A DNA stretch of 64,000 bases from positions 1-64,000 of the forward strand of contig NZ_JAJQQZ010000001.1 of assembly GCF_021729015.1 (NCBI RefSeq), written 5' to 3'. Each line of letters begins with the position of its first letter. Position 1 is the first letter of the stretch. The notes beneath the pieces were generated by a model. It ran no database searches. It was not told the origin of the DNA and worked only from the letters and a program-made list of their open reading frames with translations. This document shows, piece by piece, positions 2,502-62,502 of the stretch. Source of the stretch: Halobacterium rubrum (lineage in GTDB: Archaea; Halobacteriota; Halobacteria; Halobacteriales; Halobacteriaceae). A program made the position numbers and the translations under genes.

Positions 2502-4262
2502 CTACCGGAGCGCGTCGAGTTCGAACTCGAAGCCGGCGACCGGCACTTCGACGTCGTGGTCGACGATGACCGCGGGGTGGAGTTCGCCGATGACGCCAAC
2601 CGGCTCGCCGTCGATCTCGACGGTGGCAGCGCGCCCGTCGATGAACGACGGGTGGTCGGTCGGCGGGGTGGCGAGGTCGACGTGGAACTCGTCGCAGAGT
2701 GCCTGCAGGCGCGCTTTGGCGTCCTCGTAGGAGGCGTCGTGGCGCGCGAGCACGGCGGCGACGGTGCGGCGTTCGGCGACGCCCGTCTCGGTGTCGCCGT
2801 CGGCGTGAGCGGCGAAGCCGACTTCGGCGAGTTCCTGCGGGTAGGAGTGGTGCGTGTTGTTCTCCAGGACCATCGCGAGCGAGGGCAGCGCCCACGTGCG
2901 GAGGATGGTGAAGTCCTCGCTGTAGGGTTCGGAGATGGTGGCTGGCTCCGCAGCCCCCACCGCGTCGTCCTCGTCGGGCGACAGCCGCATGCGGTCGAAG
3001 TTCTCCGCCTCGCTGGTCATGTTGAAGTTCAGGAGGTCCTCGAAGCCGAGGCCGACGAGCGTCCCGCGGACGGAGCGTTCGAGCCGCGAGGACTCGGTGC
3101 GGCCGCCGATGGTGTTGACGTCCGGGTAGCGCGGCTCGAGGTCGTTGAAGCCGTACGCGCGCCCGAGGTCGTCGACGACGTCGACGGGGTGCAGCACGTC
3201 GACGCGGTACGGGGGAATCTCGACGTCGTAGCCGTCGTCGACCGGCGTGGCGTCGAGCCCCGAGCGTTCGGCGAGGTCGACGACGTCGTCGGTGGTGAAG
3301 TCGACGCCGAGCAGCGTCTCGATGCGGTCGTGGGTGACGTGTTTGGTGCGGACCGCGAAGTCCGGCCGGTGGAGCTCCCTGTCGGGGTAGTCGACCGTGA
3401 CGTCCTCGATGGTGGCGCCGCGGGCGTCCAGCGCGTAGCAGATGATGGCGCACATGCGGTCGAGCGTCCACTGGTCGGTGCCAGTGAGTTCGACGAACAG
3501 CTCCCGGGAGTCGGTGGTGACCTCGGTGCGCCGGCCGTTGATGACCGGCGGGAAGCTGAACAGCCCGATGGCGTCGTAGATTGCGGGGTAGGCGTCGTAG
3601 TCCGCCAGGAGGTCGGCGTAGGTCTCCCCGGTCGGGTGCTCGGAGAGGACGTCGGCGGGCGTGCGTTCGGCGTCGTCGTCCAGTGGGACGAACGTGTCGC
3701 CGTCGGGCTCGACGCTCGTGTACGTGATGGAGCGAGTGGCGGCGCCGTCGCCCTCGGTGTCGACGGCTTCGCTCGCGGTTTCACCGCTCGCGCGTTCGGT
3801 GGCGCTGCGCGCCACCTGCCCCTTGAGCATCGCGAGGTCGTGGATGCCGATGGCGCCCTTCGCGCGCTTGCGGCCCATCGTGGCGTGCAGCTTCTCCTGG
3901 AGCTGGATGAGCGAGTCGAGCGCGTCCTCGTCGAGGTCGACGCCGCGAATCACGGCACCGGTGACGTACGGCCGATCTTCGGGGACGTCCTCGACGTTGA
4001 TGGTCCACTCCGGGCTGTTCGTGTCGGGGACGTCGACGCCGCGGTCGTCGCCGTAGTGGTAGCGCAGACTGCGTGCGATGCCCTCGACGGAGAGCCGGTC
4101 GAGGCGGTCGGCCTCGAACTCGAGTTTGAAGTCACCGTCCTCGGTCTCGCCCTCGTACTCGATGCCGAGGCCGAAGAGGTCCTGGCGGAGGTCGTCGTCG
4201 TCCTTGTCGCGGTGGCCGGTGAGCCGGCGGAGTTCGTCGGGGTCGACGTCGACGACGGGCAT
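2502..4262 (-). CDS. pheT: Phenylalanyl-tRNA synthetase beta subunit
   Basis: A 586-residue archaeal-type PheT. With PheS it forms the heterotetramer that charges tRNA-Phe; PheT carries the B3/B4 editing and B5 domains. Visible are MPVVDVDPDELRRLTG at the start, GAVIRGVDLDEDALDSLI, IGIHDLAMLKG, and the B5-like HVTHDRIETLLGV and DVLHPVDVVDDLGRAYGF. The start ATG overlaps the pheS stop (TGATG), so translation is coupled. Residues about 149-164 (ARSATERASGETASEA) are a coding palindromic repeat inserted between conserved blocks. Convergent with pyrD. Confidence 0.97.
   Translation of the reverse strand: MPVVDVDPDELRRLTGHRDKDDDDLRQDLFGLGIEYEGETEDGDFKLEFEADRLDRLSVEGIARSLRYHYGDDRGVDVPDTNSPEWTINVEDVPEDRPYVTGAVIRGVDLDEDALDSLIQLQEKLHATMGRKRAKGAIGIHDLAMLKGQVARSATERASGETASEAVDTEGDGAATRSITYTSVEPDGDTFVPLDDDAERTPADVLSEHPTGETYADLLADYDAYPAIYDAIGLFSFPPVINGRRTEVTTDSRELFVELTGTDQWTLDRMCAIICYALDARGATIEDVTVDYPDRELHRPDFAVRTKHVTHDRIETLLGVDFTTDDVVDLAERSGLDATPVDDGYDVEIPPYRVDVLHPVDVVDDLGRAYGFNDLEPRYPDVNTIGGRTESSRLERSVRGTLVGLGFEDLLNFNMTSEAENFDRMRLSPDEDDAVGAAEPATISEPYSEDFTILRTWALPSLAMVLENNTHHSYPQELAEVGFAAHADGDTETGVAERRTVAAVLARHDASYEDAKARLQALCDEFHVDLATPPTDHPSFIDGRAATVEIDGEPVGVIGELHPAVIVDHDVEVPVAGFEFELDALR
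3770..3817 (-). repeat. In-frame double-hairpin repeat inside pheT
   Basis: On the coding strand: an 8-bp perfect stem with a 3-base loop (arms 3798-3805 and 3809-3816), a 10-base linker GAACGCGCGA, then GCGGT-GAA-ACCGC (arms 3775-3779 and 3783-3787). It encodes ARSATERASGETASEA. The order stem, linker with CGA, stem, and the reading register match copies inside the two XPD-like helicases. Confidence 0.75.
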
Positions 4263-26559: not shown

Positions 26560-28497
26560 GTGAATCCCGAGCGCATCGTCGGGGAGTTCCCCGCCCCCGA
26601 GTTCCGGGGCGCCCAGCAGCAGGCGCTTTCGGACATCCGGGACGCGTTCGCGGCGGGGAACGACGTGGTGCTGGTGCGGGCGCCCACCGGGAGCGGGAAG
26701 AGCCTGCTCGCGCGCTCCATCATGGGGTGCGCCCGGCGGGCTGCCGACGCCAGCCCGAGCGACGCCGTCGGCGCCTACTACACGACGCCGCAGGTGAGCC
26801 AGCTCGACGACGTCGCCGAAGACGACCTGCTGGAGGACTTCAAGCTCATCCGGGGGAAGTCCAACTACACCTGCATCCTGCCCGACGAGGAGACCACGCC
26901 CGTGGACCGGGCGCCGTGCGCTCGCGAGCGAGGCTACGACTGCGCGGTGAAACACCGCTGTCCGTACTTCTCCGACCGCGCCATCGCGTCCTCCCGGGAC
27001 TTCGCGGCGATGACGCTGGCGTACTTCATGCGCACCGCCGGCAGCGAGGTCTTCAGGAAGCGCGACGTCTGCGTCGTCGACGAGGCCCACGGGCTCGCGG
27101 AGTGGGCGGAGATGTACGCGACCATCGACCTCGACGACCGGACGGTGCCGGTCTGGGAGGACGTCCGCGTCCCGGACGACCTCGACGGCGACCCCGACAG
27201 GACCGTGGACTTCGCCGAACACCTCGTTCGAGTCTGCGAGGGCGCGAAAGACGACCTGCTCGGGCAGGACGAGCTCACCGCCGAGGAGGTCGCTCGCCGG
27301 GACCGGCTCCAGGAGCTCATCTCCGAGCTGAACTGGTTCGTGGAGGACTACCGCGACCCCGAGTCGGCGACGACGTGGGTGGTGGACAGCGAGGCGCCAC
27401 GCGCCTCGGAACGGTCGAGCGGGCGGAGCCCGCGAGACGCCGACGCCGAGGCGGTCACCATCAAGCCGATGGACCCGGAGCGCTACCTCAAACACACCGT
27501 CTGGGACCGCGCGAACAGGCACGCGCTGCTCTCGGCCACGATTCTGAACAAGGAGGCGTTCTGCCGGAGCGTCGGCCTCGACCCGTCGAACGTCGCGCTC
27601 GTCGACGTCGAACACACCTTCCCCGTGGAGAACCGGCCGCTGTACGACGTGACGCAGGGGAAGATGACCTACGAGCACCGCGAGCAGACGCTGCCGAAGG
27701 TCGCCGAGACCGTCGTGCGCGCGATGGCGAACCACCCCGACGAGAAGGGCATCGTTCACGCCCACAGCTACGACATCGCGGAGAAGCTGGCGGCCCACCT
27801 CGACGACGTCGGCGTCGGCGACCGCGTGCGGACCCACGACTCGGACACCCGGGACGCCGAACTGGAGCGCTGGAAAGCCAGCGACGCCCCCGAGGTGTTC
27901 GTCTCCGTGAAGATGGAGGAGGCCCTCGACCTCGCTCACGACCTCGGGCGCTGGCAGGTGCTGTGCAAGGCGCCGTTCCTCAACACGAACGACTCCCGCG
28001 TGGCCGCGAGGCTCGCGGACGGCCAGTGGGCGTGGTACTACCGGACCGCCCTCCGAACCGTCATTCAGGCCTGCGGCCGGGTGGTGCGCGCCCCCGACGA
28101 CTACGGCGCCACCTACGTCGCCGACGCGAGCATCCTCGACCTCTTCGAGCGCGCCCGCACCGACATGCCGCCGTGGTTCGCCGACCAGGTCGACCGCATG
28201 AGCACGCCGGACCTCCCGCCCGCCGACCCCGAGGCCGCGCTCGGCGAGACAACCACGAGCGTCGAACAGGTCGAGACGTTCGACCGCTCCGACAGCGGTG
28301 ACCGGAGCGGGTCGAGGAGTGGCGGTGGCGGCAGTAGCAGTTCGGACGGGAGCGGTGGCAGCAGCAGCAAAAGCGGTGGTAGCGGTAGAAGCGGCGGCGG
28401 TGGCTCCGGCGGGGGGGCGCCCGTCGGCCGGACGACGGACTACGAGGACCGCGAGAGCAAGGGGTCGCCGGTCGCCGACGTCTGGAACACGGAGTAG
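26560..28497 (+). CDS. XPD/Rad3-like DNA helicase (copy 1)
   Basis: A 645-residue SF2 helicase of the DEAD_2 group. Walker A is APTGSGKS (residues 41-48) and the DEAH box is VVDEAHGLAEWA (about residue 174). Between them are cysteines in YTCILPDE, APCARERGYDCAVKHRCPYF, an XPD-like Fe-S cluster candidate. C-terminal motifs include LLSATIL and QACGRVVRAPDDYG. Residues about 278-293 are a coding palindromic repeat, and the last 65 residues are Ser/Gly-rich and probably disordered. GTG is the start, giving the family N-terminus EFPAPEFRGAQ. Likely role: DNA unwinding in repair. Confidence 0.9.
   Translation: MNPERIVGEFPAPEFRGAQQQALSDIRDAFAAGNDVVLVRAPTGSGKSLLARSIMGCARRAADASPSDAVGAYYTTPQVSQLDDVAEDDLLEDFKLIRGKSNYTCILPDEETTPVDRAPCARERGYDCAVKHRCPYFSDRAIASSRDFAAMTLAYFMRTAGSEVFRKRDVCVVDEAHGLAEWAEMYATIDLDDRTVPVWEDVRVPDDLDGDPDRTVDFAEHLVRVCEGAKDDLLGQDELTAEEVARRDRLQELISELNWFVEDYRDPESATTWVVDSEAPRASERSSGRSPRDADAEAVTIKPMDPERYLKHTVWDRANRHALLSATILNKEAFCRSVGLDPSNVALVDVEHTFPVENRPLYDVTQGKMTYEHREQTLPKVAETVVRAMANHPDEKGIVHAHSYDIAEKLAAHLDDVGVGDRVRTHDSDTRDAELERWKASDAPEVFVSVKMEEALDLAHDLGRWQVLCKAPFLNTNDSRVAARLADGQWAWYYRTALRTVIQACGRVVRAPDDYGATYVADASILDLFERARTDMPPWFADQVDRMSTPDLPPADPEAALGETTTSVEQVETFDRSDSGDRSGSRSGGGGSSSSDGSGGSSSKSGGSGRSGGGGSGGGAPVGRTTDYEDRESKGSPVADVWNTE
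27391..27440 (+). repeat. In-frame double-hairpin repeat in XPD-like helicase 1
   Basis: GAGGCGC-CAC-GCGCCTC (27391-27407), the linker GGAACGGTCGA, then GCGGGC-GGA-GCCCGC (27419-27433). It encodes EAPRASERSSGRSPRDA. An almost identical copy lies in the other XPD-like helicase at 55761-55810, and a related one in pheT. The insertion falls in a variable loop before the motif that starts ITIKPMDPERYL-like text. Confidence 0.85.
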
Positions 28498-53859: not shown

Positions 53860-54084
53860 ATGGTGGCGGACATCGACACAAGCCTGCTCGGACGGGACGT
53901 ATCGTTCACGCTGGCCGAACCGTGGCTGGCGTACTGGCTCGTCGTCATGCGGTTCGCCGTCGGGTGGTGGCTGCTGCACGCCGGCATGGACAAGCTGTTC
54001 AACTGGCCGTTCGACGCCAGCTGGTTCGTCGGCGGCGCCGCCGCCCCTCCCGAGGCGGAGGTTTATACGGCGTGCCGGTCATAA
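53860..54084 (+). pseudogene. Truncated DoxX-like membrane protein
   Basis: A 74-residue ORF matching only the first third of DoxX-family membrane proteins: SFTLAEPWLAYWLVVMRFAV, then WWLLHAGMDKLFNWPFDASW. The DoxX motif FHAG-DK and FDASWF is intact, but after PPEAEVYTACRS the ORF stops and the promoter of the next gene begins. It keeps a good promoter (acatttaag near 53811-53819). Probably a deletion remnant. Confidence 0.7.
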
Positions 54085-54095
54085 CCTCGGACAAC

Positions 54096-56387
54096 GTGGC
54101 CGCCAGCGACGCCGACTACATGCAGTTCTTCCCGAAGCCGTCGCCGTACGACAACCAGCGGGCGGCGATGGACGAGATCCGGGACGCGCTCGACGGCGGC
54201 CGAGACGTTCTCTTCGAGGGCGCCTGCGGGACGGGCAAGACGCTCGCGGCGCTCGCGCCGGCCCTGGCGCACGCACAGGCCGAGGACAAGACCGTCGTCA
54301 TCACGACGAACGTCCACCAGCAGATGCGCCAGTTCGTCCGGGAGGCCCGCGAGATCCACGACGCCGAGCCCATCCGTGCGGTCGTGTTCAAGGGCAAGGG
54401 GTCGATGTGCCACATCGACGTCGACTACGAGGAGTGCCAGGTGCTCCGGGACAACACCCACGAGCTCGTGGACGCCGAGCGCGACAAGCGCCAGCTGGAG
54501 GAACGCCAGCGCGCGCTCCTCGACGAGGCGCAGGCCGGCGACAGCGAGGCCGCCGACGCCCGGCAGGCCGTGATGGACGAACTCGAAGCCGTCGAGGACG
54601 AGCTCGACGACCTCGAGGACGGCAACGTCTGCGAGCGCTACTACGAGAACCTCGTCGGGGACAACGACGAGTTCTACCAGTGGCTGTACGACGGCGTCCG
54701 GACGCCCGAGGACATCTACGACTACGCCGAGGAGGCGGGGCTGTGCGGGTACGAACTCCTCAAGGACGGCATCGAGGGCGTCGACCTCGCGGTCTGCAAC
54801 TACCACCACCTGCTGGACCCCGGGATTCGCGCGCAGTTCTTCCGCTGGCTCGGCCGCGACCCCGAGGACGTCGTGGTGGTCTTCGACGAGGCGCACAACG
54901 TCGAGGACGCCGCCCGCGACCACGCCGCCGAGACGCTCACCGAGCACACTCTGGACAGCGCGCTCGACGAACTCGAGGAGACGAGCGACCCCCGGGCGGA
55001 GGCGGCCGAGCGCGTGCTCGGGGCGTTCCGGGACGCGCTCGTCGAGACCTGCGAGGACTCCTTCGGGCCGGGCGGGAAGGGGCCGACGCGCGCGAAGTCC
55101 GAGGTCGGCTCCAACTGGGAGGACGTCCCCGTGGCGAACGACGACCGGCGGGACGACCTCACACTCTCCTTTCTCCAGTCGTACACCGGCCCGGGCATCA
55201 ACGAGGACGTCACCGACGCGCTCGGGCTCGGCGACTATCTGGACGAGGAGTACGAGGACGCCTACCGGAACGGCGACGCGACGACCCGCCGTGACTGCCA
55301 CGTGCTCGCCGCCGCCGAGTTCGTGGAGGCGTACGTCGAGCGCGGCGGCGAGTTCGGCCAGTACCCGACGGCGGCGGTGCGCCGCGACGACCGCACCGGC
55401 GACGTGTACGGTCGCGCGGAGCTGTACACCTGCATCCCCCGGGAGGTGACGACGGACCTCTTCGACGCCGTGCACGCGAGCGTCCTGATGAGTGCGACGC
55501 TCCGTCCGTTCGACGTCGTCGGCGACGTGCTGGGGCTGGAGGACCCAGTCGAGCTGGCGTTCGGCCTCCAGTTCCCCGAACAGCGCAGGCGGACGTTCGC
55601 CGTCGACACCGAGCCGCTGTTCTCCTCGAACCGCGAGGACCCCGCGACCCAGCAGGCGGTCGCCGACGCGCTCAGGGACGCGATGCGGTTCACGCCCGGG
55701 AACTGCCTGTTCTTCTTCCCGAGCTACGCCGAGGCCGAACGCTACCACGACTTGGTGGGCGAGGCGCCACGCGCCTCGGAATCGTCGAGCGGGCGGGGCC
55801 CGCGAGACGGCGGCGTCGACGGCAACACCCGCTACCTCGACGAGCCCGGCGTGGCGGCCGAGGACCTCCGCCAGGAGTTCGTCGCCGACCGCAGCGGCGC
55901 GCTGTTCACGTCGCTGTGGGGGACGCTCGCCGAGGGCGTGAGCTTCGACGGCGACGACGCCCGCACCGTCGCGGTCGTCGGCGTCCCCTACCCCCACCTC
56001 GACGCCCGGGCCGAGGCAGTCCAGGACGCCTACGCGACGGCGTTCGCCGACCGCGACGAGAAGGGCGGCGACGGCGGTGGCCGGCGTCGCCGGGGCAGCG
56101 GGGACGCCGGCTGGCGGTACGCCGTCGAGATTCCGACCGTGCGCAAGACCCGGCAGGCGATGGGCCGCGTCATCCGCTCCCCCGAGGACTTCGGCGTCCG
56201 GATGCTCGTCGACCGCCGGTACACGGCCGCCAGCCGCACCGGGATGCGGAAGTACTCCGTGAACGCGACGTTCCCGCCCGAGGAGCGCGCCGAGATGGTC
56301 GACGTCGACCCGGAGAAGCTGCGGTTCTCGCTGTTGAACTTCTACGGTGACATGGAGGCCTACGACGGCGACCCGCCGTCGCCCTGA
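54096..56387 (+). CDS. XPD/Rad3-like DNA helicase (copy 2)
   Basis: A 763-residue DEAD_2 helicase. Walker A is EGACGTGKT (about residues 40-48); the four-cysteine Fe-S region includes SMCHIDVDYEECQVL, GNVCERYYEN and GLCGYELL; the DEAH box is VVVFDEAHNVEDAARDHA (about residue 264). Later motifs are LMSATLRPFD, FFFPSYAEAERY and RQAMGRVIRSPEDFG. Residues about 556-571 are a coding palindromic repeat like that in helicase 1. GTG 54096 follows a gtttatacgg TATA by about 30 bp. Inferred role: repair or replication helicase. Confidence 0.92.
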   Translation: MAASDADYMQFFPKPSPYDNQRAAMDEIRDALDGGRDVLFEGACGTGKTLAALAPALAHAQAEDKTVVITTNVHQQMRQFVREAREIHDAEPIRAVVFKGKGSMCHIDVDYEECQVLRDNTHELVDAERDKRQLEERQRALLDEAQAGDSEAADARQAVMDELEAVEDELDDLEDGNVCERYYENLVGDNDEFYQWLYDGVRTPEDIYDYAEEAGLCGYELLKDGIEGVDLAVCNYHHLLDPGIRAQFFRWLGRDPEDVVVVFDEAHNVEDAARDHAAETLTEHTLDSALDELEETSDPRAEAAERVLGAFRDALVETCEDSFGPGGKGPTRAKSEVGSNWEDVPVANDDRRDDLTLSFLQSYTGPGINEDVTDALGLGDYLDEEYEDAYRNGDATTRRDCHVLAAAEFVEAYVERGGEFGQYPTAAVRRDDRTGDVYGRAELYTCIPREVTTDLFDAVHASVLMSATLRPFDVVGDVLGLEDPVELAFGLQFPEQRRRTFAVDTEPLFSSNREDPATQQAVADALRDAMRFTPGNCLFFFPSYAEAERYHDLVGEAPRASESSSGRGPRDGGVDGNTRYLDEPGVAAEDLRQEFVADRSGALFTSLWGTLAEGVSFDGDDARTVAVVGVPYPHLDARAEAVQDAYATAFADRDEKGGDGGGRRRRGSGDAGWRYAVEIPTVRKTRQAMGRVIRSPEDFGVRMLVDRRYTAASRTGMRKYSVNATFPPEERAEMVDVDPEKLRFSLLNFYGDMEAYDGDPPSP
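55761..55810 (+). repeat. In-frame double-hairpin repeat in XPD-like helicase 2
   Basis: GAGGCGC-CAC-GCGCCTC (55761-55777), linker GGAATCGTCGA, and GCGGGC-GGG-GCCCGC (55789-55803), encoding EAPRASESSSGRGPRDG. It differs from the copy at 27391 by only a few bases although the two helicases are otherwise well diverged. Confidence 0.85.
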
Positions 56388-61406: not shown

Positions 61407-61571
61407 ATGACAGCCTGCACCGAGTGCGGGGCCGAGCTATCCCTGCACGACGACCTCGAAGTCGGCGAAATCGTCGACTGCAGTACGTGTGGTACCGAAC
61501 TGGAAGTACTCGAGACCGCTCCCCCGAGCCTCGACCGAGCGCCGGAGCTCGCCGAGGACTGGGGGGAGTGA
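61407..61571 (+). CDS. lysW: Amino-group carrier protein LysW
   Basis: A 54-residue carrier. Four cysteines in CTECG (C4, C7) and CSTCG (C25, C28) bind zinc, and the C-terminal EDWGE ends in the glutamate (E54) whose gamma-carboxyl is linked to the amino group of the substrate during lysine or arginine synthesis. Conserved length and ending make the assignment firm. Its stop is one base before the TTG of argX. Confidence 0.95.
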   Translation: MTACTECGAELSLHDDLEVGEIVDCSTCGTELEVLETAPPSLDRAPELAEDWGE

Positions 61572-61572
61572 G

Positions 61573-62502
61573 TTGCGCGTCGGATTACTCTACTCCCGGA
61601 TTCGCCGCGACGAGAAGCTGCTGCTGGGCGAACTCCGGGAGCGCGGCCACGACGTCGAGAAGATCGACGTGCGCGAGCACGGCTTCGACCTCGACGGCAC
61701 CGACGCCCCCCTGATGGACTGCGACCTGGTCGTCGACCGCTGTCTGGCGACCAGCCGCTCCGTCCACCTCACAGAGGCCTGCGAGACGTACGGCGTGCCG
61801 GTCGTGAACAGCGCCGACACCGCCGCCGTCTGCGCGAACAAGGCCAAGACCAGCCTCGCGCTCGCGGACGCCGGCGTCCCCACGCCGGAGACGACCGTCG
61901 CGTTCACGCCCGAGAGCGCGCTCGACGCCATCGAGGACTTCGGCTACCCCTGCGTGCTGAAGCCCGTCGTGGGCTCCTGGGGCCGCCTCATGGCGAAAGT
62001 CGAGTCCGAGAGCGCCGCCGAGGCCATCCTCGAGCACAAGGACACGCTGGGCCACTACGAGCACAGCGTCTTCTACGTCCAGGAGTACGTCGAGAAGCCC
62101 GGCCGTGACGTGCGCGTACTCGCCGCCGACGGCGAGCCAATCGCTGCGATGACCCGGTCGGGCGACCACTGGCTCACGAACGCCGCGAAGGGCGGCGAGG
62201 TGAACGCCCTCGACGTCGACGACGAGCTCGCCGAAGTCGTCGCCGATGCCAGCGACGCGGTCGGTGGCGGCTTGCTGGGTGTTGATGCGATGGAGCGCGG
62301 GGCGCCACGCGCCCCGGAGGACGCGACCGGCGACGACGTCGAGCCGGGAGCCGAGGGCGGCTACACCGTCCACGAGGTCAACCACACGGTCGAGTTCAAG
62401 GCGCTGGACGAGGCCGTCGACGTCGACGTTCCGGCAGCCGTCGTGGACTGGCTCGAGGCGACGGCCGCCAGCGAGACGACGGGACTGGAGGTGACCGCGT
62501 GA
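61573..62502 (+). CDS. argX: LysW-glutamate ligase ArgX (LysX-type)
   Basis: A 309-residue ATP-grasp ligase attaching glutamate (or 2-aminoadipate) to LysW. It starts LRVGLLYSRIRRDEKLLLGE at a TTG; the ATP-grasp core has YPCVLKPVVGSWGRLMAKVE, FYVQEYVEKPGRDVRVL and HEVNHTVEFKAL. Because argG and argH sit just upstream and argC and argB follow, arginine synthesis is most likely. Residues about 243-255 (RGAPRAPEDATGDDVEPG) interrupt a conserved region with a hairpin-bearing insertion. Confidence 0.92.
   Translation: MRVGLLYSRIRRDEKLLLGELRERGHDVEKIDVREHGFDLDGTDAPLMDCDLVVDRCLATSRSVHLTEACETYGVPVVNSADTAAVCANKAKTSLALADAGVPTPETTVAFTPESALDAIEDFGYPCVLKPVVGSWGRLMAKVESESAAEAILEHKDTLGHYEHSVFYVQEYVEKPGRDVRVLAADGEPIAAMTRSGDHWLTNAAKGGEVNALDVDDELAEVVADASDAVGGGLLGVDAMERGAPRAPEDATGDDVEPGAEGGYTVHEVNHTVEFKALDEAVDVDVPAAVVDWLEATAASETTGLEVTA
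62296..62330 (+). repeat. Reduced coding hairpin repeat inside argX
   Basis: GGGGCGC-CAC-GCGCCCC (62299-62315) keeps the 7-bp stem and CAC loop of the helicase copies, with GGAGGACGCGACCGG following. The second hairpin is missing. It encodes RGAPRAPEDATG in the same register as EAPRASERSSGR. Confidence 0.65.

Follow-up and report, generated by a model that had tools for sequence, protein, structure and literature searches.

The palindrome carried by two XPD-like helicase genes in the window (the whole 64-kb stretch of Halobacterium rubrum DNA analysed here) belongs to a family of short elements found across the order Halobacteriales, and nearly all members located inside genes share a single strand and reading phase. 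The original prediction covered two copies of what is an order-wide phenomenon, whose main result is the reading-frame rule.

Reading frame and encoded peptide

A total of 107 copies were classed with a codon model applied to both 180-base flanks. The results showed that 77 of the 107 were confidently inside genes and that 76 of these 77 were read in one strand and phase, the sole antisense coding copy being L065 (C2:250919-250969 of the genome under study). The frame bias was significant over copies (binomial, P about 7e-56) and over the 45 host clusters together with the single antisense one (P about 1e-33 to 7e-33). Stop codons do not explain this rule, because most copies have mostly open frames (four to six per copy, mostly six). 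The frame in use encodes the motif EAxxASxxSSGxxPRD, a neutral, hydrophilic and Ser/Gly/Pro-rich peptide with a net charge of -0.3 and 68% S/G/P/T/N/Q/D/E, whereas four of the other five frames have a charge of +3 to +4 and are less hydrophilic, and the last, at +1, is in between. We infer, as the simplest reading, that copies in the wrong frame were removed by selection; frame-biased insertion is the alternative. Intron-like removal at the RNA level was judged unlikely, given the conserved length and frame. In the GatA copies (L098, L111, L132) the spacer is one base shorter, which puts hairpin 2 into a different frame (DSRAGDARET) from that of the other standard-length copies.

Distribution and structure of the family

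Copies were found with a covariance model, and all copy counts rest on this search. The genome under study contained 24 copies (E < 0.01), and copies were present in 46 of 59 relatives, with up to 47 per genome. Within the sampled phylum, the family is confined to Halobacteriales, with 40 of 53 genomes of the order positive compared to 0 of 241 outside it. A typical unit measures 51 bp, with 48- and 57-bp forms also present; it runs from (A/G)GC-GAG to GAGAC and forms two hairpins. In the stems, 96.9% of cells were paired, with 32 double-change cells, and the covariation score was 0.30 compared to 0.08 ± 0.014 in shuffles (0/500); slid controls failed. The tandem GA/GA internal loop of hairpin 2 had GA on each side in 84 of the 86 51-nt copies, and a GNA loop closed 42 of the 86 first hairpins. 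No Rfam family matched at the element. Outside genes, a non-coding subtype was observed (L066, L067 and L069, at C2:668429, C2:583857 and C2:571333 of the genome under study) whose hairpin 2 is GCGAACGGC..GCCGTGAGCA; this subtype and the coding one may form distinct subfamilies.

The host genes are unrelated and many are essential. Those named by Pfam include CobN, SBP56, GatA, GatE, TrpA, class I and II tRNA synthetases, PheRS alpha and beta, PurH, ribonucleotide reductase, topoisomerase I, the DNA polymerase D large subunit, carbamoyl phosphate synthetase, a Dna2-like helicase, deoxyhypusine synthase and others, and no common function was apparent among them.

Copies in the window

The copy in helicase 2 is a 51-bp unit at 55758-55808 on the + strand (covariance model match 55759-55809, 74.9 bits), with the DNA sequence GGCGAGGCGCCACGCGCCTCGGAATCGTCGAGCGGGCGGGGCCCGCGAGAC and the encoded segment GEAPRASESSSGRGPRD. 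Its limits are codon-exact, with a slide by one codon possible, and the near-identical coding palindrome originally placed at 55761-55810 was thus correctly located within 3 bases. Hairpin 1 (55760-55778, +) has perfect 8-bp arms and a CAC loop (CGAGGCGC-CAC-GCGCCTCG). Hairpin 2 (55783-55809, +) reads CGTC-GA-GCGGGC-GGG-GCCCGC-GA-GACG, consisting of a CGTC/GACG outer stem, the conserved tandem GA/GA internal loop and a GCGGGC/GCCCGC inner stem. Folds of the element as DNA and as RNA were both stable (z about -2.8 to -3.9), and several other short GC palindromes are located near it in this very GC-rich genome. The element is in frame with ORF 53922-56387, and the peptide read in that frame, EAPRASESSSGRGPRDG, is the one that had been claimed.

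The sister element in helicase 1 (27388-27438, +; covariance model match 27389-27439, 75.7 bits) is also 51 bp long and encodes SEAPRASERSSGRSPRD; the two copies share 90% identity over 60 bp. A 24-bp probe matched only these two helicase sites in the 64-kb window (0 expected from shuffles), while a purely structural pattern gave three matches across the window, against none when 30 Markov-resampled windows were scanned. The third family member is in the PheRS beta (phenylalanyl-tRNA synthetase beta) gene at 3769-3817 on the - strand, identified by the covariance model (43.6 bits), the structural pattern, Pfam and empty orthologs, with a net insert of 48 bp (QVARSATERASGETAS). Its stem sequence is entirely different from that of the helicase copies, with the pairing kept. 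In G011, the PheRS beta copy appears split by a second element-like sequence, as in a nested insertion. A probable decayed fourth member is located at 62297-62353 (+) in ORF 61489-62502, in the same element frame by a coding-frame check (covariance model 33.6 bits, E 9e-5). The protein sequence beside it (HEVNHTVEFK) resembles the filled site of L165 from another genus, which suggests that this is another recurrently used site.

Placement in the two helicases

Helicase 2 (54096-56387, +) is an XPD/Rad3-like protein with DEAD_2 and Helicase_C_2 domains, assigned by Pfam and by XPD relatives in the PDB, and helicase 1 (26560-28497, +) is an XPD-like protein with the same two Pfam domains; the XPD structure matches were clear for helicase 2 and weak for helicase 1. 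Just upstream of helicase 2, a 74-aa ORF at 53860-54084 (+) has a membrane-protein-like start and an abrupt end, and is perhaps a truncated gene, possibly DoxX-like.

The inserts correspond to residues about 555-571 of helicase 2 and 277-293 of helicase 1, in agreement with the residues of about 556 and 278 given before. Because the AlphaFold2 models were unusable (pLDDT 39 and 35; 12-row alignments), loop placement was taken from sequence alignment. Profile-profile alignment with hhalign paired the HD2 (second RecA-like) domains of the two helicases (76% probability, E 2e-5). In this alignment, the insert of helicase 2 appeared as a gap opposite helicase 1 residue ~416, and the helicase 1 insert was upstream of the LL/M-SAT motif common to both proteins. 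This alignment supports non-homologous positions for the two inserts; in it they fall apart, as the original prediction had it, rather than at one shared position.

Filled and empty sites

We compared 13 congeners, including the genome under study (G000), for the state of the helicase 2 site. Three genomes carried the insert there (G000, G005 and G011); the remaining ten, among them the closest relative G004, had an empty site. The helicase 1 site was filled in G000 and G011 only and empty in all other congeners, G005 among them. Among named relatives (79-86% identity), the helicase 2 site was filled at exactly the same position in Hbt. bonnevillei and empty in Hbt. salinarum. The net insert was 51 bp in both helicases and 57 bp at two sites in CobN, and the PheRS beta gene had a net 48 bp more than its empty orthologs, giving a precise 51/57/48-bp comparison of filled and empty alleles at five sites in four genes within the genus. 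Every measured net insert was a multiple of three with junctions between codons, and neither target duplication nor a terminal repeat was seen between filled and empty sites. Because each of the two helicase genes has a clean empty site in close Halobacterium relatives, the helicase copies represent insertions or precise losses. At the second CobN site (L281, L283), two species differed in the hairpin 1 loop (TTC versus GAA) but not in its stem, as if the hairpin were inverted.

Recurrence was scored in a set of 80 named orthologs of helicase 2. In Halorussus aquaticus (L206), the loop that holds our copy was occupied by another member of the family, and a second helicase 2 loop held members in six species of five genera: Halorussus (H. 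litoreus), Natronolimnohabitans, Halopiger, Natrialba and Halostella. The independent insertion proposed for the two helicases is supported by these members in other genera, by the precise empty orthologs of each gene and by the non-homologous positions.

Discussion

The element is probably a palindromic DNA element of Halobacteriales that is dispersed, non-autonomous and protein-coding. Copies would enter at codon boundaries, or be lost there precisely, with no duplication of the target, and those inside genes would persist if read in the frame that gives the neutral, hydrophilic and flexible peptide, which the protein may tolerate as a longer loop, presumably at its surface. Copies in the other five frames would be taken out by selection. 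The element itself may be selfish or neutral, and could spread via a folded single strand, either DNA during replication or RNA. The comparisons captured no transposition event, and no enzyme that would mobilise the element was found.

A pattern that weighs against this reading is found at the filled sites. Several of them are shared by distant species (G000 with G011/G012) in a patchy manner, with the sister species G004 empty, a pattern that requires either repeated gain at one nucleotide or many precise losses. Old insertions in the ancestor of the genus, inherited vertically and repeatedly deleted with precision, with no recent mobility, would account for flanks that track the species tree right up to the junctions and for the PheT copy, a rare variant found in G000, G011 and G012. 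This history is possible, if the less probable one, since by our own count it demands roughly 8-10 independent precise losses at the helicase sites compared to 2-3 gains, and the same-loop copies in other genera are different family members. Flank identity shows no long donor tract of the kind expected from ordinary recombination of filled alleles. The tree count would favour few gains over many losses, but the rare PheRS variant of three species fits common descent. We consider it doubtful that the element is an actively mobile hairpin entering and leaving genes precisely at codon boundaries and repeatedly re-homing to the same nucleotide of one gene across species by a transposase-free route (e.g. 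a folded ssDNA or mRNA template); if this were true, such a hairpin would seed one flexible peptide into essential proteins order-wide.

Mobilisation in trans, with a Y1 (IS200/RAYT) transposase working on hairpins in single-stranded form as in REP- or PATE-like elements, appears unlikely. GNA loops, frequent in the first hairpins, are suited to folded DNA. The palindromes also lack terminal inverted repeats and target duplication, and the 51-bp unit is nearly as long as the terminal-only PATEs of Haloquadratum, which measure 52 bp (PMC3119063); on this view it would be a terminal-only IS605-type remnant. However, Y1_Tnp (PF01797) was absent in G000, G004, G005, G007 and G028, which contained 24, 11, 8, 11 and 28 copies, respectively, while the Hbt. 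salinarum-like G006 had two Y1 genes and no copies. Nine Y1 neighbourhoods in relatives contained no canonical element, only weak matches mostly clustered in one, and a conserved GTAG or CGTC tag was not found in the element. A selected functional module is quite improbable, whether as an mRNA structure that controls translation or as a disordered linker of some use. The strict reading frame would fit such a module, as would the orthologous sites, where stems changed in 11 of 320 pairs compared to 60 of 380 unpaired bases, but the hosts have no apparent common function and close relatives manage without the insert. This stem conservation could reflect selection for structure instead of a selfish fossil; we do not accept it as proof of selection, because the copies were ascertained with a structure model, which inflates it, and copies found via protein homology have wobble or broken pairs. 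Chance or low-complexity expansion, which the very high GC content and the many short GC palindromes of the genome might invite, has next to no probability and was rejected by the shuffle and Markov-window controls, which gave 0 matches; it is also contradicted by the high covariation and the exact-length empty sites.

Halobacteriales are a group with genetic tools, and the hosts include essential tRNA synthetases, ribonucleotide reductase and DNA polymerase. With filled alleles in some species and empty ones in their sisters, both the movement of the element and its effects on proteins are directly testable. No description of the haloarchaeal coding palindrome was found in the open-licence literature searched, and an earlier report elsewhere is possible.

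Among known systems, the PATEs of Haloquadratum (PMC3119063) resemble the element in being haloarchaeal and palindromic and in lacking terminal inverted repeats and target duplication, with terminal-only forms of 52 bp; by their description, they have IS605-type ends, whereas our element showed no link to Y1 in the genomes searched. The CGTC-/GTAG-tagged REPs (PMC3733652) are likewise short hairpins with some copies within genes. Unlike REPs, the element has no conserved unpaired tetranucleotide tag, has two hairpins instead of one, has no RAYT in the five carrier genomes searched and, in the sampled phylum, occurs in Halobacteriales only; at the REP-tag position its sequence varies (GTC, TTC, CGC) and is base-paired.

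By analogy, we take the Rickettsia palindromic elements (RPE; Ogata 2000, 2002) to be the closest working analogue of the haloarchaeal element. RPE are about 105-150 bp long and have terminal inverted repeats; as described in PMC2229807 and PMC10969869, they are inserted in frame in unrelated conserved genes, their peptide is translated as part of the protein, and they have no known mobiliser. On this description, both are short palindromes in frame in many unrelated conserved genes (here one frame accounts for 76 of 77 coding copies, over 45 host clusters) and add a peptide segment to the protein. The haloarchaeal unit differs from RPE in its length of 48-57 bp, its two separate hairpins and its lack of terminal repeats, in spanning a whole archaeal order and in keeping to a single frame when most of the others are open. 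Coding palindromes are also reported in Wolbachia (Ogata 2005) and in Methanocaldococcus jannaschii, the latter as cited in PMC2229807; by that citation, the M. jannaschii repeats are similar in being archaeal repeats fused into protein genes, in a different lineage. Protein-coding palindromes, hitherto deemed peculiar to Rickettsia, Wolbachia and one methanogen, now extend across Halobacteriales.
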